Part shown: piece after piece, positions 43,902 through 54,397 of the stretch | How the letters are laid out: every line of letters begins with the position of its first letter | Numbering within the stretch: position 1 is the first letter of the stretch | NCBI GenBank assembly: GCA_005791165.1 | Contig: SXXW01000042.1 | Span: forward strand, 1-64,000 | DNA length: 64,000 nt | From: Cytophagaceae bacterium | GTDB taxonomy: Bacteria > Bacteroidota > Bacteroidia > Cytophagales > Spirosomataceae | Reading direction: 5' to 3' | Notes under the pieces: model-generated | What the model was told of the DNA's origin: nothing | Seen by the model: only the letters and a program-made list of their open reading frames with translations | The model's database searches: none | Made by a program: the position numbers and the translations under genes

Positions 43902-44501
43902 TTAAACCCGTGAAAAAACGTAAAACATTTCGCTAGCAATTTGTTTGGAACGTTCGTCGTATTTTGCGGACTCAAGATCTGTATCATCAAATTCCTTTGG
44001 ATCCTCGTACCGAACGGGGATTCTTTCCTCGGCGCCAGGAATAAAAGGACAATTCTCATCTGCATGTGAGCAAGTCATAATCGTTGCAAAATTACCGTGG
44101 GGATTAATGACATCGTCATATAATTTTGAAAAGACAATGATGGGTCTAGTGTCCTTATCTTGTAAAATAAAATAGATGGGATTTGAGTGACCATGCTTGG
44201 AAATAATGAAACCTGAACGTTTCAAAGAACGAATGGTTCTTTCATTGCATGCCGTGACTTCGACACCACCTGAGTAGCAAAAAGCGGGAATTTCAAAGTA
44301 ATCGGCAGCGGTTTGCGCCCAGATTTGGGAAAACTGTGACCTTCTAGAATTATGGGTGCAAATGAAATTAAGTCGGATGGGCTGGCCCTTTTCACGCTTT
44401 GATTTGATGTAATCGATTAATTCCTGAAGCAAAGATTTACGTTCATCACTTATTGACAGGGATAAAATTGATTCTAAATTTGCGTTTAAAGTATCATTCA
44501 T
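43902..44501 (-). CDS. ArsC-like protein-tyrosine-phosphatase family protein
   Basis: 199 aa from MNDTLNANLES; an upstream Met seven codons earlier overlaps the previous gene and is less likely. The phosphatase loop is CTHNSRRS (Cys48, Arg54). Cys144 and Cys151 in MTCSHADENCPF are spaced seven apart, as the redox pair of thioredoxin-coupled arsenate reductases. With ArsR and an ArsI-like neighbour, arsenate reduction is the likely role. A canonical LMW-PTP Cys-Arg loop is otherwise slightly altered (SRR instead of xCR). Confidence 0.75.
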   Translation of the reverse strand: MNDTLNANLESILSLSISDERKSLLQELIDYIKSKREKGQPIRLNFICTHNSRRSQFSQIWAQTAADYFEIPAFCYSGGVEVTACNERTIRSLKRSGFIISKHGHSNPIYFILQDKDTRPIIVFSKLYDDVINPHGNFATIMTCSHADENCPFIPGAEERIPVRYEDPKEFDDTDLESAKYDERSKQIASEMFYVFSRV

Positions 44502-44512
44502 TGCATAATCAA

Positions 44513-45019
44513 TTAACAGCATCCTGAACCTGGGGCACAGGAACTAGTTGTAGCTATTTCGGATAAATTTATTTTTTCTTTTTGGGAAACCGGTGGCATG
44601 CAACAAGCGGCAGCATCTTCTAAGGCATAATGTGGATCATTAAATTCAGCATCTTCATGAAAGTAATAAACTTCCCACTGAACACCATCAGGATCTGTGG
44701 CCCAAAATTTATCTTGTACCGCGTAACAGCAAGATGTACCAATTTCCTCCTTGGATACTAATCCTTGGGCACGTGCTTTTTCCAATAAATTAGACATTTC
44801 CTCAAATGTTTCCACTTGAAAACCTAGGTGACCAAAATTTGATTGAACACGATCTGAATTTTCAATAAATGAAATAATTAAAGAAGGCTTATCTAAAATA
44901 TACTTTGCGTATCCTGGCTTTACCTTGTTAGCCGGCTGGCCAAAAAAAGTTGAATAAAAATTCACAGAAGCCGCTAGATTGCTGACATAAAGTGATACAT
45001 GCATACGTGGAAAGCTCAT
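44513..45019 (-). CDS. arsI: ArsI/CadI-type dioxygenase
   Basis: 168 aa of the vicinal oxygen chelate superfamily. Likely iron ligands are His7, His64 and Glu116, and the vicinal pair Cys97-Cys98 (TSCCYAV) matches the organoarsenical-binding cysteines of ArsI C-As lyases. The C-terminus is Cys-rich (AACCMPP and GSGCC). Predicted to demethylate methylarsenite. It lies 2 bp after the ArsR gene. Confidence 0.82.
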   Translation of the reverse strand: MSFPRMHVSLYVSNLAASVNFYSTFFGQPANKVKPGYAKYILDKPSLIISFIENSDRVQSNFGHLGFQVETFEEMSNLLEKARAQGLVSKEEIGTSCCYAVQDKFWATDPDGVQWEVYYFHEDAEFNDPHYALEDAAACCMPPVSQKEKINLSEIATTSSCAPGSGCC

Positions 45020-45021
45020 AA

Positions 45022-45357
45022 TTAACAGCAGTTAGATTTTTGTGTGACATAATAATCGTCAAAGAATGCTCCAAATAAGTGGCTAAATTCAGCCCATTTT
45101 TCTGGATTAATGCAATAGCAAATTGACACCCCTTCGATTGTACCTTGAATAAATCCGATTTCTTTTAATTCACGTAAATGTTGGGAAATAGTCGCTTGGG
45201 CTAGTCCCAGTTCTTGAACCAAATCCCCATTGATGCAAGAACTTGATTTCACTAAATACTGTAATATGGCAATTCGGGCCGGATGCCCTAAAACTTTAGC
45301 CATTTGCGCCATGGCATTTTGTTCCATTGAAAACAAATCGGTTTTGGTAATCCCCAT
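45022..45357 (-). CDS. arsR: ArsR-family transcriptional repressor
   Basis: 111 aa winged-helix regulator: LGHPARIAILQYL, the recognition helix in LAQATISQHLRELKEIG and a wing after GVSICYC. Cysteines that could sense As(III) lie in SSSCINGD, CYC and the C-terminal NCC; the CxCxxC of plasmid ArsR is absent. It heads the arsR-arsI-arsC-like operon and probably represses itself at the adjoining palindrome. Confidence 0.88.
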   Translation of the reverse strand: MGITKTDLFSMEQNAMAQMAKVLGHPARIAILQYLVKSSSCINGDLVQELGLAQATISQHLRELKEIGFIQGTIEGVSICYCINPEKWAEFSHLFGAFFDDYYVTQKSNCC

Positions 45358-45448: not shown

Positions 45449-46321
45449 TTAATGATCTCCCTTCCTCTTGAGTAATACGCCACCAGCAGCTTCTTTGATG
45501 ATATTCGTAAAAATGAACGCATTCGCATCATATTCCAGAACTAAATTTCGTAAATGCCGAACCTCGAAACGGGTCATAATGGTGTACAAAATATCGGTCG
45601 GATGACTCACATCAAAACTATCTTTCATGAAACCTCGCTCTCCTTTATATACGGTAATCCCCTTCCCCATCTGCATAGCAACGGCCTTTTTTATTTCTTC
45701 ATGGTTTTTGGAAATAATCGTCACCCCGATGTATTCCTCTAAACCTTCGACGACATAATCGATGCTCCGAGTGGCGATGAAATAAGTCAGCATCGCATAA
45801 AGTGCGGTTACCATGCCTAATCCAATGGCTGCAATTAAAAATAAGATGACATTGATACCTAAAATAATTTCAGAAATAGTGAAACCAGACCGCTTCAAAG
45901 TATATAAAGCCAACACTTCAATCCCGTCGATGGCACAACCCCCTCGCATGCCTAAACCAATGCCTAAACCCAAAAAGACTCCTCCAAAGATTGAAATCAA
46001 TAATTTATCAGATGTAATGACTGGGTAAGGAATAAAAGTTAGGGCTAAGGCCAAACCTATCACGGCTAGTAAAGTTCGAATGGCAAAACTTTTACTAATT
46101 AAATAGCCGCCCATGATGATAAATGGGACATTACAAAGGATCACCAACACGGTGATCGGAATATGATAGGTTTCATGAATTAAAAGTGCAACACCCGTTA
46201 CACCCCCATCCAAAAAGTGATTGGGGACCAAAAAACTCTCTAGGGCAAATCCGGCGAACAAAATGCCTGCGACAGCATAGAAAAAGTCTTGAACATTATC
46301 TTTGATTGAATGAGTACTCAT
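45449..46321 (-). CDS. YitT-family integral membrane protein
   Basis: 290 aa. About five N-terminal membrane helices rich in Gly (GVFLGLGIGLGMRGGCAIDG) followed by a soluble DUF2179 domain (about 210-285, IMTRFEVRHLRNLVLEYD). Function of the family is not established. Its ATG overlaps the stop of the cyclase-HD gene (ATGA), so the two are translated together, and it precedes but is separate from the ars operon. Confidence 0.85.
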   Translation of the reverse strand: MSTHSIKDNVQDFFYAVAGILFAGFALESFLVPNHFLDGGVTGVALLIHETYHIPITVLVILCNVPFIIMGGYLISKSFAIRTLLAVIGLALALTFIPYPVITSDKLLISIFGGVFLGLGIGLGMRGGCAIDGIEVLALYTLKRSGFTISEIILGINVILFLIAAIGLGMVTALYAMLTYFIATRSIDYVVEGLEEYIGVTIISKNHEEIKKAVAMQMGKGITVYKGERGFMKDSFDVSHPTDILYTIMTRFEVRHLRNLVLEYDANAFIFTNIIKEAAGGVLLKRKGDH

Positions 46322-48414
46322 GAATATTTTGATTTAATAATTTGTAAGTGTTTTTCTTTTTGCTCTCCTCTTAATGTTCGAGCCGTTTCTGTAAAATAAT
46401 GATGATTCTCTAAGAACTTAATTTGTATTTGATCCCAAACAGATTCTTCATTGACCACATTTCTAGCTTTTAATTCGTTGAATAATTGATCGCCAATGAT
46501 AAAGAAATCATCCCGACCTAAATAATCTAAATCCGCATCGGCAATAATTTCTTCCAGTAAACTTTGTGGTTTTTGAGGGATTTTAGTGGCCCTAATCATG
46601 CCGCAAATCAATTCTATTTCAAGTAGCGTAAAACCAATATGAAACAAATGATCCTTTGCGTATTGACACGAAATCTCCTCATGTCCATCGGCCTGAACTA
46701 AAAAACCCGTATCATGAAAAAGTGCAGCCACCATCACCAACTCTAAATCATGTTCTCCTATTCCTTCTGATAAGGCAATTTTTCGGGCACTTGTAAATAC
46801 ATCGAGCGTATGAGAAATTGAATGATAGTATAAATCAGGAGATAAATTGACGAGCATCTCACCAATCACCAATTCATATACTTCCAACACCTTTGGGGTA
46901 CAAAAACATTTTGAGAGGGCATAAATCTGAACCTCATTTTCTTTTCCTTTTACCTTAATGGCATCTAACTTTTGAAAATCAAAAAGTCCGGAAGCATCTA
47001 CATCAGAGACAACGGATTCAGAAACCAGTATTTGGCCTGGGCCGGCATTTGAACATAGCCTTGCAGCTAAATTAACCGCATCTCCAATCACCGTGTAATT
47101 CATTTGGTCCTTGGAACCTATATTTCCGGCAATGGCCTTTCCTCGATTGATTCCGATGCCAATTTCAATGGGATCCATTCCCTTTTCCTTTCGAAGTTCA
47201 TTAAAATCGATGAGCAATTTCTGCATTTCAATGGCGGTCAACAAAGCCCTTTTGGTATCATCATGGCCATAAATAGGTGCACCATAAATAACCATTAGGG
47301 CGTCACCAATAATCTTATCCAAGGTACCGTTGTACTTGAAAACCACTTCGATCATCAAGTCAAAATATTCATTCAACGTTTTGACTACATCGATTGGATC
47401 CATGCGCTCACTCATATTGGTGAAACCACGGATGTCTGTAAATAAAGTTGTGAGCGTTAATTCCTGGCCCCCAAGATTCAATAAATCTTCATTTTCTAAA
47501 ATCTTGTCGACAATCTGTTTCGAAACGTATTTTTTGAAAGTGCTCTTAATTTTATCTAGGTAAGAGATATCCTCCATGGCAATGACCGTGCCGATTTGCT
47601 CTCCTAAATCATCGATCAAAGGCGAGATCGTCAGATTCACATGAACAGATTCTACACCTACTTTGATTAAAAAGTTTTGTTCCGAATAAACTCTGACTTC
47701 TTGTTCTACTTTTTCTAACAGGCTTAATAAATCAGGATCCTTTTCAAAAACAATTTGATAATGATTGCCAATACATTCCTCGGCTGAAATGTGTGCGATT
47801 TTGACCGCCGTTTTATTGACGTAATCAATTTCTCCAAACAAATTTGTGGTAATAACACCCGTATGAATCGACTCCATGATGTTATCATTAAATCGTTTCG
47901 ATTCCAAAAGTGTATCCAACAAAAACGTATTGTTATAAGCCACGCTAGCCTGAACTGATATGGCTGAAAGCATGGCCGCGTCCTCAACGGAGAAATCAGA
48001 TTTACCATTTCTAAGCTCTTTATCAAAAATAATTATCGAACCCAGCAATTGATTTTTCCCCGTAATAGGTGCAGCAAGGGCAAAGGATTTCTCTAATTTT
48101 TCTAACAGATTAGTCTCAATAGGAATACAAGCGTGCTTCTCCTTTTGAGTTGCTAAGGTATTCAAAAAGCCCCTTTTTTTATTAAAGATTATCTTAGATA
48201 GGACTTTTTCATCCAAATTAAAAACGGCCTTGGGGACAAATAAATCCGAGTTCTTTTCTTCAATTAAAACAAAACCACAGGAAGCATCTAGAATTCCACA
48301 GGTACGAATTAAAATATCTTGCAATAAATCATCCACGTCCTCATGTTCAATCAGCGTGTTAGTGATTTCAAGCAAAGTCTCTAATTCGAGCTGTTTGAAT
48401 GCAATATTATTCAT
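46318..48414 (-). CDS. GAF-PAS-class III adenylate cyclase-HD fusion
   Basis: 698 aa, no membrane helix. GAF at about 15-165, PAS at about 175-285, cyclase at about 310-485 and HD domain at about 505-690. Cyclase residues are complete: metal Asp327 (FTDIRGFTN) and Asp371 (KIIGDALMV), adenine-type Lys367 and Thr441, transition-state Asn448 and Arg452. Lys/Thr points to a class IIIb adenylate cyclase. The HD domain keeps its His, HD (LFHDTGF) and Asp (DADLDYLG) metal ligands, so it may be catalytic too. A terminator separates it from the STAS gene upstream. Confidence 0.87.
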   Translation of the reverse strand: MNNIAFKQLELETLLEITNTLIEHEDVDDLLQDILIRTCGILDASCGFVLIEEKNSDLFVPKAVFNLDEKVLSKIIFNKKRGFLNTLATQKEKHACIPIETNLLEKLEKSFALAAPITGKNQLLGSIIIFDKELRNGKSDFSVEDAAMLSAISVQASVAYNNTFLLDTLLESKRFNDNIMESIHTGVITTNLFGEIDYVNKTAVKIAHISAEECIGNHYQIVFEKDPDLLSLLEKVEQEVRVYSEQNFLIKVGVESVHVNLTISPLIDDLGEQIGTVIAMEDISYLDKIKSTFKKYVSKQIVDKILENEDLLNLGGQELTLTTLFTDIRGFTNMSERMDPIDVVKTLNEYFDLMIEVVFKYNGTLDKIIGDALMVIYGAPIYGHDDTKRALLTAIEMQKLLIDFNELRKEKGMDPIEIGIGINRGKAIAGNIGSKDQMNYTVIGDAVNLAARLCSNAGPGQILVSESVVSDVDASGLFDFQKLDAIKVKGKENEVQIYALSKCFCTPKVLEVYELVIGEMLVNLSPDLYYHSISHTLDVFTSARKIALSEGIGEHDLELVMVAALFHDTGFLVQADGHEEISCQYAKDHLFHIGFTLLEIELICGMIRATKIPQKPQSLLEEIIADADLDYLGRDDFFIIGDQLFNELKARNVVNEESVWDQIQIKFLENHHYFTETARTLRGEQKEKHLQIIKSKYS

Positions 48415-48505
48415 GTTTATATGCTATTCGCATAAAAAATTTATGAAATTAATGACCGCAAATTATTGCGTTATTTTTTTAAAAGAATTCAATTCCACTT
48501 TAGCC

Positions 48506-48546
48506 ATAAAATAACTCCTCTTAAAAACTCAAGAGGGGTTATTTTT
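48506..48546 (-). terminator. Terminator after the STAS gene
   Basis: On the minus strand AATAAC-C-CCTCTT pairs with AAGAGG-A-GTTATT around a T-rich loop, with one mismatch, then TTTT. It ends the phosphatase-kinase-STAS operon before the cyclase gene, whose start lies about 90 bp further on. Confidence 0.8.
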
Positions 48547-48554
48547 GAATGAAA

Positions 48555-48896
48555 TTAAAAATCAGCTAAAGCTTCTTCTTTCGTTGCGTACACGGAAGAG
48601 TACTTCGTCAAACCCATAATCTTAAAAGTCTTGTCGACGATAGGAGCCAGATTATAATATCCTAATTTACCATCTACTTCTTGTAATTTTTCAATAATTT
48701 CAATCAAGATAGACACCCCAATACTGTTGACCACTTTAGTTTGGGCCATATCTAATAAAAATCGAGTCTTTCCATTGGCTATGTTTTCGTAGCAAATGCC
48801 TGAAATCATTTCCCCTCCTTCATTATTCAAATACCCCTCAGTTGTTAAAATTACTAAATCGTTCTCTTCTTGTATGCTTATGTTAAATTGGCTCAT
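48555..48896 (-). CDS. STAS-domain anti-sigma-factor-antagonist-like protein
   Basis: 113 aa, single STAS domain. Ser58 in VVNSIGVSIL lines up with the phosphorylated serine of SpoIIAA (DSSG loop, here NSIG), so switching by phosphorylation is possible. It starts within the kinase gene (ATGA overlap) and is followed by a terminator. Expected partner: the RsbW-like kinase upstream; the output target is not encoded here. Confidence 0.85.
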   Translation of the reverse strand: MSQFNISIQEENDLVILTTEGYLNNEGGEMISGICYENIANGKTRFLLDMAQTKVVNSIGVSILIEIIEKLQEVDGKLGYYNLAPIVDKTFKIMGLTKYSSVYATKEEALADF

Positions 48897-49309
48897 GATT
48901 CTTTCTTTTTTGTCATTGTTACAGTTGTACCTTCTTTTGTGGATTCAAACTCTACGGTATCCATTAATTCTTTTATAAGTTGTAAACCCCAGCCACGCTT
49001 GCGTTCATCGGTGCCCAACTTATTTTCAATTTTTGGAATTTGAACTTTTGATTTATCAAATCCAATTCCTTGATCAATCACTTTAATTACTAATGTGTCT
49101 TCTTCCAAGATAAAATGGATGAATACATTGTTTTGAGCCTGAGAGTGCTCAAACGCATTTATACATGCCTCAATAAGCGCCATGCTAATTTCGGCAGCTT
49201 TATCTTCGCTCAAATCCATGTGTTTGGCGACCACCTCAGCCGTATTGATAGCCACTAATTCCATGTTGGCTATAATCGGAAGTTTTAATTCAATCTTCGG
49301 TTTATCCAT
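48893..49309 (-). CDS. RsbW/SpoIIAB-like serine kinase
   Basis: 138 aa GHKL ATPase. N-box ISMALIEACINAFEHSQ (Glu47, Asn51), G1 box DQGIGFD (Asp79) and G2 box RGWGLQLIKELMD are all present. Such kinases phosphorylate STAS partners and sequester a target such as a sigma factor. The upstream phosphatase gene is 22 bp away and the STAS gene overlaps by 4 bp. Confidence 0.88.
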   Translation of the reverse strand: MDKPKIELKLPIIANMELVAINTAEVVAKHMDLSEDKAAEISMALIEACINAFEHSQAQNNVFIHFILEEDTLVIKVIDQGIGFDKSKVQIPKIENKLGTDERKRGWGLQLIKELMDTVEFESTKEGTTVTMTKKKES

Positions 49310-49331
49310 TTTTTCATATTTGTTAATTAGC

Positions 49332-51272
49332 TCATTTATTTTTTTTGATTATTACAAACGTTATATCATCTGGGTTATGCAAACCCTCCAACCATTTATC
49401 TGCCTCTAATATAAAAGAATTTTTAATTTCATCCGCAGATTTAGATCCTATCGCTTCTAAATGGCATTTTACTCGATCATAATCATACATCTCCCCAGCA
49501 AGATTGGGTGCTTCAGGCAAACCGTCAGATAATTGAATCACCACATCTCCCGGCTCAAAATCCCTTTCAATCAGGTCAAAATCTTCATTTCCCAACCCCC
49601 CCAAAGGCAAATTTGTTTGTAAGATCTCTTCCACGTTTTTAGTGGCGGCTTTGTATAAAAATATGGGTGGCATAGCAGCAGACGTCATCCGTATTTTATC
49701 ATCCTTAATCTCAATAATATTTAAGCTCATCCTTAATGTACCTAAATCGATCTTGCGAATTACCTGATTTAATTTTTTAAGAATTAAGTTTATTTTAGTC
49801 TCTGTAATACTAATTAAACTAGCCTTCGTCACGGAAACCATCATACCTGAGGCTACCCCATGACCAGTTGCATCTCCACAAATGGATAAAATCGTATTAT
49901 CTGGCTGAACAATGAAGTCATAATAATCGCCACCCACCTCTGTGGAAGATCGGATAAAAGTAGCTATTTCAATATCATTGCTTTTTGGCAATATTTTGGG
50001 CAAAAAGCCTATTTGCATTTTTTGGGCAGCTTCTAATTCTTTTGTTTTCCGAGTCTCTTCGATTTTAGCAAATTTACGCTTTTGAGCGCTTGATTGAACC
50101 ATCAATAGGACAAAAATCGCCAAAACAAACAAAACACAAATACCACCAATCAATAGCTTTGTTTTCTCTTTTTGCTCATCCAATGCATCATTTTTATCCT
50201 GCTCGACAAGCGCATAATTCTGTGCCTGATTAACCTGTTTTTCACTGTAAAGGCTATCGCGTAAATCATTTGCTTTCTTTAAATACAAAAATGCTTGGCT
50301 ATCTTGCCCCAGACTTCTGTAGACTTTAGATAGAAGCTTATAATTATTTAGAGCTCCTAACGTATAAGAATACTTTTTAGAAAGCTCATTAAATAAGTTA
50401 CCATATTTCAAACTAGAGTCTGGCATATTGAGTTTATAATAAGCCTCCGACATGCCATAATATGATTCCAATGCACCTTTTAATCTACTAGTATATAACT
50501 GAATGGGAATTGCTTTGTGATAAGCCTTGATCGCTTTTTCAAAATTTCCCAATTGTATATTTATATTTCCCTCTAATATATATGGGTATCCCCATTGTTC
50601 TAAATAGGGATATTTATTATTGATTTTTTGTCCAATGATGAGAAATTTTTGTGCTTTGTCAAATTCATTGATTAATAAATATATATCGACTAAATGTATC
50701 ACTCTCTGCCTAGTAGTATTTGTCAATTCGGAATTTTTGACAGAGTTTAAACTCAACAAATCCTGATCTATTTTATTTAAATACTCTAAGCACTTGTCTT
50801 TATTCCCTAAATGCGCATATATATAAGCAATTTGATAATTTATATCATTGTAAGGATTTGAAAAATAAAAAGCAGATTTTTCTGTAAGAGCCGTTTTATA
50901 TCCCTTATCTAAATTAATTTTTCTATATTTTAAAGCATCAAATGCATGGTAAAGTGCAGAAGTATAGTTTCCCGAATAAATATTCTCTGCATTAGCAAAT
51001 AATAAATTAATTTGTTCAAGCAGTTCGGTTGAATTAACTTCTTTGGCTTCAATTTCAGCCTTCTTAAGAAAAATTACTGCTGAATCTAGTTTACTTTGAA
51101 CTAAATTGACAGCCAAACTAATGTAGATTTTTGCCTTTGCCGATTTATCACTTGTTTTCTCGATTTTAAGCAATGAATCCTTAACACTTACTTTAGATTG
51201 GGCATGTAATACATTCATGCTTCCCACAAATGCTAACAATAAAATAAAGAATGATTTAATAAAGTTCTTCAT
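49332..51272 (-). CDS. TPR-membrane-SpoIIE (PP2C) phosphatase
   Basis: 646 aa. Signal peptide (about 1-24), a periplasmic region of helical TPR-like repeats (about 30-340), a transmembrane helix at 373-392, a short coiled coil and a cytoplasmic PP2C domain (about 425-646). Metal motifs: EVGGDYYDF (Asp449), CGDATGHG, SDGLPEAPN and PDDITFVII. It would dephosphorylate the STAS protein in response to an external signal. Its catalytic half is clearly paralogous to the next gene. Confidence 0.87.
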   Translation of the reverse strand: MKNFIKSFFILLLAFVGSMNVLHAQSKVSVKDSLLKIEKTSDKSAKAKIYISLAVNLVQSKLDSAVIFLKKAEIEAKEVNSTELLEQINLLFANAENIYSGNYTSALYHAFDALKYRKINLDKGYKTALTEKSAFYFSNPYNDINYQIAYIYAHLGNKDKCLEYLNKIDQDLLSLNSVKNSELTNTTRQRVIHLVDIYLLINEFDKAQKFLIIGQKINNKYPYLEQWGYPYILEGNINIQLGNFEKAIKAYHKAIPIQLYTSRLKGALESYYGMSEAYYKLNMPDSSLKYGNLFNELSKKYSYTLGALNNYKLLSKVYRSLGQDSQAFLYLKKANDLRDSLYSEKQVNQAQNYALVEQDKNDALDEQKEKTKLLIGGICVLFVLAIFVLLMVQSSAQKRKFAKIEETRKTKELEAAQKMQIGFLPKILPKSNDIEIATFIRSSTEVGGDYYDFIVQPDNTILSICGDATGHGVASGMMVSVTKASLISITETKINLILKKLNQVIRKIDLGTLRMSLNIIEIKDDKIRMTSAAMPPIFLYKAATKNVEEILQTNLPLGGLGNEDFDLIERDFEPGDVVIQLSDGLPEAPNLAGEMYDYDRVKCHLEAIGSKSADEIKNSFILEADKWLEGLHNPDDITFVIIKKNK

Positions 51273-51322
51273 AGATTTAATTCGTACGTTCTATAAACAT
51301 TCTTTTCGTTTTATAATATTGA

Positions 51323-54300
51323 TCAAACGTGCTTAATAACCACTATCGTAATATCGTCAGGGGTTGTTTGGCCTGCCAACCAATCACTTCCTAATACCAC
51401 CAAAGCATCTTTTATTTCTTCAGCAGATTTTTCTGCACTAGCTAAAATACAATCTTCAACAGCCTGATAACCCAATTGATCCCCTTTTAAATTAGGAGCT
51501 TCCGGTAAGCCATCCGAGGCGATGACAAAAATATCACCTTTTGAAAATGAGCGTTCTTCCATATCAAAAGTAGCTCCATACAATCCACCTAGAGGCAAAC
51601 CACTGATTTGTATTTCTTCAATCTTCTTCGCCTTGGCTATATACAAATAACAAGGTGGCATAGCCGCTGAACTAAGTTTCAATTTGTTCTTTTTGAAATG
51701 AACGATATTTAAACTCATTCTTAAAATCCCCAAATCCACTTTTTTAACAAGTCGGTTTAAGTCATACAGCATTTTATTCGGTTCATCTAAAGGAAGACCA
51801 ATTAAACCGGCTTTAGTGATGGACACCAACATACCCGCTGCCGTTCCATGTCCGGTCGCGTCGCCACAAACGGCGACCAAACTACCATCCGGTTGGGGAT
51901 GAAAATCATAATAATCACCACCTACTTCCGATGAAGTTTGCAAATAACTGGCTATATCTAAGCCTTCCACCTTAGGCAAGGTTTTAGGCAACATTCTATT
52001 TTGCAGATCCTTAGCCGCCTCTAATTCAGCTATTCTGCGCTCATCCTCTGCCTTACCTCTTGATTTTTTGGCTTGGTATTTTCCAAACAAAATAAACAGA
52101 TACACCAATAAACCCAGGTAAACCAGGTAGGCAAAAATAGTTCTATACCAGGGTGGGGAAATTTTAAATTTAACACTAGTTTCATCGCTCACATGACCAG
52201 ATGCATCCATAGCTCTAACGTGAAAGGTATAAGTGCCTTCACTTAAATTGGTATATTCTTTTTTGAAATCCTTGGTATATTCAGTCCATGTATCATCCTG
52301 GTTTTCGAGCCAATAACTAAACGTTGTCTTGTTTTCTGTTCCAAATAAAGGATAAGCCACCTCAAATACCAGGTTGTTTTGAGAAAAAGGAAGAGTTTCA
52401 GGTACAATGGGAACAGGCTCACCATTGGAAGAGATCGATCGAATTAAGGCTTTAAATTGTTGGGCTGGTTCTTTTAAAGCCAAAGCAGGAACGTAGCGAT
52501 ATAATTTGCTTTCCTGCGAACCAAACCAAATAACCTCATCATCACCACTTCCTTCTGGTAAAACATTGTAACTTAACTCATCTAAATCCACTTTATAAAA
52601 AGGGTATTTTTCAAATGTAAATCCTTTTTTTAAGTCAAAATAAGTTTTGAAAAGTCCTTTTTTGCAGATGAGCCAACCATACCCTGAATCTTTATTATAA
52701 GTGTAACTCCATAATTCATCCGAAACCATTTCGTTTAAACTGAAGCCTGAATCTCTAAGTTTTTGAGCTTTGGTATCCACAATAAAAACATTATTGGACG
52801 AATCACAAGTGGCTAAAATGTTATCTTTTAAATAAACAATTCCTTTCTGCTGCTTGGTTTTAGCAAATGACTTATCTTGAGGTAGAGAAGTAAAAGTTCC
52901 TTGTCCAGATACATCATATTTGAACATGACAATTCCCTTCCGAGTGGAAATCAATATTTTTCCTGGCTCAAGTTCTGAAACATTAGAACCACGATATTGA
53001 TCACCTCCAATAATTTTAATTTGCTTCCAAACCTTGCCATTAAATTGATGTAGTAAAAGTCCATAAGCACTATTACTACTAAATAAAAGGGAAGGATTTA
53101 ACTTGGATTGGATAGATTTATTGCTTCTATAGGTATCTGAAATTTTAATCTTCTTCCCATTTAAAACGGCGTTAATCGAATAATTATTGGTACATACAAT
53201 TTGATCATTAAATAAAGTCAAAGAACCCCCTAACTCTTTAACATCCAAAGACTTAAATACCGAAGTTTCAGTAATTGACTTTTTAGGGATAAATTGGAAT
53301 AAATCTTTTCCTGTTCGAATGATTAATTTTCCCTTGTGCCTAATGATATCAGATACTCTACCTACAATTCCATTTAAGGAAGAAAAATTAGTCAAAGAAG
53401 GATCAAAAGAGATTTTAGTGGCTCCTGAATTTGCCCCCCAAATATCTCCTACTCGATCTTGCATGACAAACGAGAAGCCAGGTTCAGCTAAACCAGAACT
53501 TATGCCAACCTCCGCGTTTGTGCTTAAATCTTGATTTAGAAATAATATGCCCTTATTCATCGTAATAATGGCAATCTTGCCATTGCGCATGACTTTATCA
53601 TTAATATAACCCAAACCCTCAATGACGAATTTGTTGGCATACGGATTATTCACAGGCAGGAATTCGCCTTTCTTCGTCATCCTGATTAATCCGATGTTTC
53701 GAGAAACCAACAGGTGATCCCCGTTGTCCAATTGGTAATTTGCTTCAATCCGATTTTGAGCAAATAATTTTTCTGAACCTTTGATGACCGAAAATCCATT
53801 TTTAGCAGAATACTTAAATAATCCCTTGCCCCATATCCTTAAATAAACCCCATCCGGCGAACCTAGCATAATATGAATATCATCCTTAAACTTATATGAA
53901 CGCAAGTACTTTTTATCCTTAAATAAATAAACCGCATTCTCTGTTTGAAAAAATAAAGTATCTTGATGGACCTTTAAACTCCAAAAGGTAGAAGTAACCT
54001 CATCCTTTTTGGGTAGTTTATCGGAAAGTGATATATACTCATTTTGACCAAATTTATTTTTTTCCAAATAGCCAAAATTAACTCCCGCAAAGCCTAAGTA
54101 AATCGTATTTTTTGAATCTATTTCCGCATCACGAACAAAAGCACTCATCGGCTTTCCATTCTGTAATACCCGTCTAACCCTTTGTCCATCAAATTCGATT
54201 AAACCGTTTCTAACGTTGCCGACATAAATGACCCCTTCCTTATCTTGCATTACTACATAATTACCAAACGCGGACCTCAGAAAATCTCTTTTGTAATGCG

Positions 54301-54397
54301 AAATGAAAAAATTGCCTTGCTCTAAATCTTTAGAATTAGTATTTTGCGACACAACAAAAAATGGTAGAAATAACAGTAATGCAATGACGGATTTCAT
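51323..54397 (-). CDS. Propeller/Y_Y_Y-membrane-SpoIIE (PP2C) phosphatase
   Basis: 1024 aa. Signal peptide about 1-17, a long beta-propeller-repeat sensor (about 25-650), a Y_Y_Y-like domain (about 655-745, ENQDDTWTEYTKDF), transmembrane helix at 753-772, coiled coil, and PP2C domain. Motifs EVGGDYYDF (Asp828), CGDATGHG, SDGLPEAPN and PDDITIVVI are intact. The sensor half is of the kind found in hybrid two-component systems that sense glycans, here attached to a phosphatase instead of a kinase. It is the first gene of the operon. Confidence 0.87.
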   Translation of the reverse strand: MKSVIALLLFLPFFVVSQNTNSKDLEQGNFFISHYKRDFLRSAFGNYVVMQDKEGVIYVGNVRNGLIEFDGQRVRRVLQNGKPMSAFVRDAEIDSKNTIYLGFAGVNFGYLEKNKFGQNEYISLSDKLPKKDEVTSTFWSLKVHQDTLFFQTENAVYLFKDKKYLRSYKFKDDIHIMLGSPDGVYLRIWGKGLFKYSAKNGFSVIKGSEKLFAQNRIEANYQLDNGDHLLVSRNIGLIRMTKKGEFLPVNNPYANKFVIEGLGYINDKVMRNGKIAIITMNKGILFLNQDLSTNAEVGISSGLAEPGFSFVMQDRVGDIWGANSGATKISFDPSLTNFSSLNGIVGRVSDIIRHKGKLIIRTGKDLFQFIPKKSITETSVFKSLDVKELGGSLTLFNDQIVCTNNYSINAVLNGKKIKISDTYRSNKSIQSKLNPSLLFSSNSAYGLLLHQFNGKVWKQIKIIGGDQYRGSNVSELEPGKILISTRKGIVMFKYDVSGQGTFTSLPQDKSFAKTKQQKGIVYLKDNILATCDSSNNVFIVDTKAQKLRDSGFSLNEMVSDELWSYTYNKDSGYGWLICKKGLFKTYFDLKKGFTFEKYPFYKVDLDELSYNVLPEGSGDDEVIWFGSQESKLYRYVPALALKEPAQQFKALIRSISSNGEPVPIVPETLPFSQNNLVFEVAYPLFGTENKTTFSYWLENQDDTWTEYTKDFKKEYTNLSEGTYTFHVRAMDASGHVSDETSVKFKISPPWYRTIFAYLVYLGLLVYLFILFGKYQAKKSRGKAEDERRIAELEAAKDLQNRMLPKTLPKVEGLDIASYLQTSSEVGGDYYDFHPQPDGSLVAVCGDATGHGTAAGMLVSITKAGLIGLPLDEPNKMLYDLNRLVKKVDLGILRMSLNIVHFKKNKLKLSSAAMPPCYLYIAKAKKIEEIQISGLPLGGLYGATFDMEERSFSKGDIFVIASDGLPEAPNLKGDQLGYQAVEDCILASAEKSAEEIKDALVVLGSDWLAGQTTPDDITIVVIKHV

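Follow-up and report, generated by a model that had tools for sequence, protein, structure and literature searches.

RsbW and SpoIIAB kinases classically act on sigma factors, and known partner switches end in sigma factors or, in a few cases, in diguanylate cyclases. Here we analyze a locus in which the genes of such a switch lie beside a gene for a class III nucleotide cyclase, on a 64,000-nucleotide stretch of DNA from a Cytophagaceae bacterium (positions 1 to 64,000 of contig SXXW01000042.1; this whole stretch is called the window below). The window lies on contig C41 of genome G000 (2.57 Mb, 42 contigs, 84% complete). The locus shares with RsbU-RsbW-RsbV and SpoIIE-SpoIIAB-SpoIIAA the phosphatase, kinase and STAS families, the conserved kinase boxes and a serine at STAS position 58, but the contig has a cyclase instead of a sigma factor, and the motif at the serine is NSIG rather than DSSG.

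Switches that control nucleotide cyclases are among the closest described systems. HsbR of Pseudomonas aeruginosa combines kinase and phosphatase activities in one protein, and we know of no HD domain or membrane-protein slot in the HsbR-HsbA-HsbD system. The STAS-type anti-anti-sigma factor HsbA has a phospho-serine and binds a nucleotide cyclase, HsbD, according to its phosphorylation state, the phosphorylated form being the one that binds (PMC5085249). HsbD is a diguanylate cyclase, whereas the output domain in the window is of class III (PF00211). The SiaABCD system, in which SiaA is a phosphatase (also by its NCBIfam name), likewise has a kinase, a small partner and a cyclase, but SiaC is a DUF1987 protein and not a STAS protein, SiaD is a diguanylate cyclase, and the phosphatase domains of the window match the SiaA model far below cut-off. 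In P. aeruginosa, phosphorylation of SiaC prevents the activation of SiaD (PMC8457831). In the BgrV-BgrR switch of Sinorhizobium meliloti a STAS protein controls a cyclase, which is again a diguanylate cyclase (PMC8457831). A switch kinase is linked to a downstream GGDEF cyclase in the Moorella stressosome (PMC4976288), and Gram-negative RsbRSTX stressosome operons may carry GGDEF proteins downstream (PMC9237108). In these cases too the switch kinase either works on a downstream cyclase or has its gene close to one; however, the enzymes are GGDEF proteins and the switch is RsbRSTX, not of the RsbU-RsbW-RsbV type.

All STAS- or partner-controlled cyclases in the literature covered are diguanylate cyclases. 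In that literature, which was mostly non-subscription, so that earlier reports may exist, we found neither the present block nor any other partner switch on a class III cyclase described; the word 'cyclase' was not found in a review of STAS-only proteins (PMC8256260) or in a paper on the specificity of SpoIIE-type phosphatases (PMC11418112). What appears to be new in the window is the pairing of a partner switch with a class III cyclase in place of a GGDEF enzyme, with a logic that, by analogy, may be that of HsbA-HsbD and SiaABCD. We consider it probable that the locus encodes a partner switch with a cyclic-mononucleotide cyclase as its output. This would join Rsb logic to cyclic-mononucleotide signaling, and it suggests that outside signals control a cyclic-nucleotide messenger rather than a sigma factor.

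The switch genes and the adjoining cyclase

The block consists of six open reading frames on the minus strand, which encode two phosphatases (PP1 and PP2), an RsbW-like serine kinase, a STAS protein, a GAF-PAS-cyclase-HD protein and a YitT membrane protein. Successive genes are separated by 50 bp (PP1-PP2), 22 bp (PP2-kinase), -4 bp (kinase-STAS), 140 bp (STAS-cyclase) and -4 bp (cyclase-YitT), negative values being overlaps. The block holds both SpoIIE domains of the genome, its one PF00211 cyclase, its sole HATPase_c_2 kinase over cut-off, and its one STAS protein as counted with PF01740 only, STAS_2 being outside that search.

The kinase (48893-49309, minus strand; HATPase_c_2, 4e-25, Pfam) has intact N, G1 and G2 boxes. 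Ten box residues are invariant in 77 of 77 relatives, an eleventh is Leu or Ile among them, and the nearest solved structures are RsbW and SpoIIAB. In the STAS protein (48555-48896, minus strand; PF01740, 2e-8), Ser58 (codon 48723-48725, motif VVNSIG) aligns in a comparison with 1th8 with the first serine of the SpoIIAA DSSG motif, the phospho-site of SpoIIAA. The residues N57-S58-I59-G60 are kept in 76 of 76 relatives. Because the 21 STAS proteins of the control loci described below read ISSAGL or close variants at this place, we regard the NSIG proteins as a separate subfamily. By its phosphatases, kinase boxes and STAS serine, the block classifies at the sequence level as a partner-switching set of the SpoIIE/RsbU-RsbW-RsbV type. 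These results bear out an earlier note made from the DNA alone, which had named the two SpoIIE phosphatases, one kinase with complete boxes, one STAS protein with a serine matching the SpoIIAA phospho-serine, the cyclase-HD fusion and YitT.

We collected relatives by a pattern-based scan with the kinase alignment, taking one genome per species, and kept the best 80 of 92 as loci. Their kinases are 62-100% identical to that of the window and come from Bacteroidota and Marinimicrobia. Fourteen loci were dropped (3 without a kinase open reading frame, 11 with less than 2.6 kb downstream), and among the 66 counted, a STAS gene lies next to the kinase in 64; 63 contain a cyclase of the window's type, and 58 encode at least one SpoIIE phosphatase. 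When only well-covered loci are considered, those that extend 6.5 kb or more downstream and 4 kb or more upstream (n = 40), a cyclase is found in 39 and a phosphatase in 37. The conserved unit of switch genes with a phosphatase alongside, envisaged in the earlier note, is thus present in related genomes. The control consisted of the 24 next-best RsbW kinase hits of the search within the order, with regions of 12-20 kb; the kinase profile was seen in 22 of them, a STAS protein in 21 and a SpoIIE phosphatase in 17, whereas a class III cyclase was found by profile in 0 of 24, which rules out a chance neighborhood.

In 57 of 69 loci, STAS and cyclase genes share as many as 10 bp or are separated by no more than 16 bp, the overlap being exactly 1 bp in 20. 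The other 12 are six loci of the window's clade (99-153 bp), L100 and L101 (a phosphatase gene inserted), L099 and L102 (rearranged, with the gene order shuffled but all parts still together), L111 (270 bp) and L132 (44 bp). In the window, a terminator-like hairpin (48506-48548, minus strand, -16.8 kcal/mol) lies between the two genes, and the earlier note had accordingly set the cyclase-HD gene apart as a unit behind a terminator. That separation does not hold across relatives: since 57 of 69 loci have the two genes overlapping or within 16 bp, the gap with its hairpin, which is present in part of the window's clade only, is a local state. Conservation and gene spacing mark the cyclase as a core part of the module and not a mere neighbor, and the evidence points to the cyclase as the target of the switch, for which the earlier note had named no candidate.

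Several observations weigh against this conclusion. Co-localization is no proof of contact. The gap in the window's own clade, 140 bp in the window itself, holds the terminator-like hairpin in some members, and in L100 and L101 a phosphatase gene stands between STAS and cyclase. The cyclase is missing in 3 of 66 loci: L123 and the Marinimicrobia loci L169 and L171. In L169 the STAS gene is followed by genes for ExbB, ExbD, ExbD and TonB (Pfam), L171 has genes of nearly the same sizes, and both have the same STAS motif. We also examined eight regions around more distant kinase relatives (36-62% identical), and a cyclase occurs only in the 62% one (L219). In six of these regions (L221-L226, 36-42%), whose STAS protein also reads VNSIG, the STAS gene is followed by one whose 531-538-aa product matches SpoIIE. 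Each region also encodes one or two longer phosphatases (1111-1280 aa), and the one tested has a propeller and Y_Y_Y. In L220 (48%) neither a kinase nor a STAS open reading frame was found by the script, the kinase having an in-frame stop. Finally, the three kinds of small membrane protein treated below (YitT, TMEM175 and PycTM) are all absent by profile in 9 of the 40 well-covered loci. As L169, L171, L123 and the sister regions show, the switch also exists without a cyclase; the alternative third genes fit an exchangeable partner, and the cyclase is not obligatory.

The kinase could instead hold an unlinked sigma factor, with the cyclase belonging to a second, parallel pathway that reads the same environment. 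The structural kinship of the kinase to RsbW and SpoIIAB and the classic function of these proteins speak for such an arrangement, as do the 11 Sigma70_r2 genes of the genome, all on other contigs, and the hairpin ahead of the cyclase gene in the window. However, contig C41 has no Sigma70_r2 match, in line with the statement in the earlier note that the target is not a local sigma factor (the search for sigma factors covered this genome and not the related loci), and a parallel pathway sits poorly with a cyclase in 63 of 66 loci and in none of the 24 controls; we regard it as unlikely. The four commonest unlabeled neighbor families in the related loci belong to TPR or DUF481 or match nothing in Pfam above the cut-off.

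Signals could also flow in reverse, the cyclase being the input whose cyclic nucleotide tunes a switch component, and the real output lying elsewhere. The PAS domain and weak GAF match of the cyclase would suit this, and so would the SpoIIE phosphatase, an input enzyme, in the position of the cyclase in the sister subfamily. Against it, no Pfam domain binding cyclic nucleoside monophosphates (cNMP) is found in the kinase, the STAS protein, PP1 or PP2, and effector-type membrane proteins next to the cyclase suit an output role better, which makes reverse flow improbable in our estimate.

The distances in kinase, STAS and cyclase trees are correlated (r 0.83-0.86); we did not use this as evidence, because common descent alone would yield it. 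Two kinase-STAS pairs occur in L102, with a phosphatase gene between them, and a kinase relative at G194:C14:6309-6710 (48%) has an in-frame TGA.

Cyclase product, HD domain and membrane-protein slot

The gene at 46318-48414 (minus strand; Guanylate_cyc 4e-31, PAS 2e-12, HD 1e-9) encodes a GAF domain (residues 25-159, a match that stays under Pfam cut-offs, best 8e-4), a PAS domain (177-283), a class III cyclase domain (321-500; 46915-47454, minus strand, the sole PF00211 match of the genome) and an HD phosphohydrolase domain (506-698; 46321-46899, minus strand). We examined the residues that characterize adenylyl-type enzymes: two metal-binding Asp, base-selecting Lys and Thr, and transition-state Asn and Arg. 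All 71 sequences retain K367, D371, T441, N448 and R452, and 70 retain D327, the remaining one having a gap. The Lys/Thr pair K367/T441 is the pattern of class IIIb adenylyl cyclases, and a sequence comparison with solved structures likewise gives adenylyl cyclases as the best matches. By alignment, the catalytic residues are of the adenylyl-cyclase type, and the product is most likely cyclic AMP (cAMP).

The HD domain is fused to the cyclase in 33 loci, as in the window, and is encoded by a gene of its own in 6 Marinoscillum/Flammeovirgaceae-type loci. Its residues H33, H37, H69-D70, H80 and D128 (domain numbering) are invariant in 32 aligned rows. The structure predicted for the domain (mean pLDDT, the predicted local distance difference test score, 96.3) has 2pq7 as its best structural match and as the only one below E 0.001. 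YpgQ and further HD proteins come next, and PDE2A and PDE4D, which are class I cyclic-nucleotide phosphodiesterases, rank lower. The model fits a putative phosphodiesterase of the cyclase product, and because the domain is fused to the cyclase, synthesis and breakdown would then be placed in one chain. In five loci of the window's family without switch genes (L076, L079, L081, L082 and L083), a 348-aa class III cyclase is encoded beside a 189-195-aa HD gene; L079 additionally has an HD-PycTM fusion of 442 aa about 6 kb from the 348-aa cyclase. The GAF head of the cyclase gave short matches only against the phosphatase of the sister family, and we claim no link between them.

Next to the cyclase gene is one for a YitT membrane protein with DUF2179 (45449-46321, minus strand; 6e-53, Pfam), outside the span 46318-54397 of the earlier note. 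YitT, TMEM175 and PycTM were called by profiles seeded from few members, some of them Pfam-checked. Among the 80 loci, YitT is found in 12, TMEM175 in 18 and PycTM in 24, so that 54 hold one of them and none holds two kinds together; in 31 of the 40 well-covered loci, one of the three adjoins the block or lies close to it, the kind differing by clade. The YitT gene shares 4 nt with the end of the cyclase gene in 11 of 12 loci and 121 nt in the remaining one (with the start chosen by the script), and TMEM175 starts between -26 and +8 bp from the cyclase in 18 of 18. PycTM genes run on the other strand: 10 loci have the gene at the cyclase end, no more than about 20 bp off, 8 have it at a distance of 4.8-5.1 kb, and in 6 it lies on the kinase side, 88-165 bp away. 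Three of the 24 PycTM calls were checked with Pfam and two with PADLOC (L133, 1e-24). On a tree of 67 loci and the window, the TMEM175 clade includes the YitT loci L121 and L122, and the main YitT clade has as its sister L127, a TMEM175 locus whose placement is less sure because of its long branch. The kind of membrane protein changed at least three times over the labeled rows of this tree.

YitT proteins of the module form a subfamily tied to it: they are 82-99% identical to that of the window and the single YitT found in the same-genus genome G086 is 44% identical, which weakens the view of YitT as a mere neighbor; at 84% completeness, a second YitT may be missing from the window's genome. 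A CRP-type protein was considered as a shared output and rejected. The cNMP-binding domain PF00027 has 4 matches in the window's genome and none in 10 genomes (54-93% complete) of f8, another family of the order that carries the module, so that a CRP-type protein is not the common receiver, although it may still act in the window's organism. Since 7 of these 10 genomes have the full cyclase and none has PF00027, a receiver of another kind is to be expected there. The membrane proteins beside the cyclase are concrete receiver candidates, and YitT, which adjoins the cyclase and whose family has no assigned function in Pfam, is the most likely receiver of the messenger in the window.

A class III cyclase beside a PycTM-type protein, as found in part of the relatives, is also the composition of Pycsar (PycC and PycTM; PMC11224242), and the locus could be an anti-phage system with a switch added, making a cyclic pyrimidine on infection so that the membrane protein kills the cell. 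PycTM homologs do occur in 24 of 80 loci, five of the ten f8 genomes have one PF18967 match each, lying in the block, and the cyclase matches PADLOC PycC models (1e-22). However, the base-selecting residues and the nearest structures are adenylyl-type, a partner switch and periplasmic sensors accompany the cyclase, and YitT takes the place of PycTM in the window, whose genome has no PF18967 match and whose block genes include no TIR protein (Pfam). We consider a Pycsar-type defense function very improbable. In a comparison by spacing from the metal-binding Asp, which covered clades B, D and E only, F325 falls at the place of F60 and I369 at that of K104 in the clade D set of pyrimidine-selecting residues, F60, K104 and F109 (PMC11224242). 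In L200 (G190:C11:672500-692400), a family member without the switch, two stretches weakly resemble a cyclase and a PycTM gene lies some 0.7 kb from them, possibly a plain Pycsar-like pair.

More broadly, an NSIG-type STAS switch with interchangeable membrane phosphatase sensors, a class III cyclase and a cyclic mononucleotide acting directly on a swappable effector (YitT, the TMEM175 channel or PycTM) might constitute a modular cassette of apparently mostly aquatic Bacteroidota and Marinimicrobia, an idea we offer tentatively and with more doubt than conviction. If it were true, YitT/DUF2179 and TMEM175 would rank as new receptors for cyclic nucleotides, and environmental sensing would drive a non-defense relative of the Pycsar-like effectors.

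Phosphatase sensors and a possible signaling route

PP1 (51323-54397, minus strand; SpoIIE 3e-25, Y_Y_Y 1e-10, Pfam) begins with a signal-like hydrophobic stretch, as judged by eye, followed by a predicted periplasmic sensor, a transmembrane helix at about 751-774 and the SpoIIE/PP2C phosphatase; hydropathy gives one strong transmembrane segment, 751-774, and no other. Four metal-binding Asp positions of the phosphatase are kept in 87-90 of 92 relatives, the exceptions being gaps or X and one G. The earlier note had assigned a propeller sensor to PP1. Pfam finds no propeller in it, but a model of residues 21-799 (23 sequences, pLDDT 88.8, predicted template modeling score, pTM, 0.80) resembles sensor domains of hybrid two-component systems and so agrees with that assignment. 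Among solved structures it comes nearest to periplasmic or extracellular domains from the Bacteroides sensor systems BT4663 (4a2l; best, template modeling score 0.73), BT3049 and BT4673, and the structure entry of BT4663 describes heparin and heparan sulphate sensing. The sensor of PP1 is therefore predicted, from the model, to be a periplasmic double beta-propeller with Y_Y_Y, like a glycan sensor.

PP2 (49332-51272, minus strand; SpoIIE 6e-27) has a hydrophobic N-terminal stretch at 4-22, a TPR sensor that Pfam recognizes, as the earlier note had read it, a transmembrane segment at 369-398 and then the SpoIIE/PP2C phosphatase. Both proteins look like periplasmic sensors with cytoplasmic phosphatases. 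The convergence of two external signals on a single switch, also proposed earlier, is supported to the extent that there are two membrane phosphatase sensors on a single switch and the set is conserved in relatives; the number of phosphatases varies. Counting all 80 loci, contig ends included, there is one phosphatase gene in 53, two in 12, three in 1, four in 3 and none in 11.

With a cyclic-mononucleotide cyclase as output, the route may be pictured as follows. Periplasmic signals would set the activity of PP1, through its double propeller, and of PP2, through its TPRs. The two phosphatases would dephosphorylate the STAS protein at Ser58 and the kinase would rephosphorylate it. Either the STAS protein, most likely in its unphosphorylated form, or the freed kinase would dock on the GAF-PAS-cyclase and alter its activity; by analogy with SiaC, the direction in which phosphorylation blocks activation is weakly favored. 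The cyclase would make what is most likely cAMP, the fused HD domain would most likely hydrolyze it, and the small membrane protein beside the cyclase, here YitT, would respond to it.

Distribution of the module and flanking genes

Record titles of the relatives include Cytophagaceae, Spirosoma, Chitinophagaceae, Sediminibacterium, Flavobacteriaceae, Flammeovirgaceae, Marinoscillum, Candidatus Marinimicrobia and others, and to judge from isolate codes most of them apparently come from lakes or the sea. The lineages concerned appear here almost only as metagenome-assembled genomes or single-cell records. A kinase match at E <= 1e-25 is present in 9 of 395 genomes drawn from the phylum, the window's own included. 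Among 16 other genomes of the window's family, 15, with G086 among them, have no kinase match at 1e-3, and the remaining one, G127, has a weak match (2e-5); the close kinase relatives within the order are 7 genomes, all of f8. A contaminant contig was ruled out, as 9.5 kb flanking the block matches G086 at the DNA level, in six pieces with 65-75% identity, of which one contig carries five, and in a further piece of 40 bases. Because the kinase is sparse in the window's family and present in f8, and the flank matches G086, the distribution of the module is patchy, and it has probably been moved horizontally or lost in many lines.

In the marine loci L150 (5935-9896), L137, L140, L151, L154 and L157, pairs of genes for proteins of about 305-335 and 112-126 aa occur beside the kinase, one to three pairs in a row; among those tested, none matched a Pfam family above the cut-off. 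Downstream of YitT in the window, at 43902-45357, lie genes for an ArsR-type regulator, a glyoxalase-fold protein and a protein weakly like low-molecular-weight phosphatases. The three genes are found in the same order in six related loci and may be an arsenic-response cluster.

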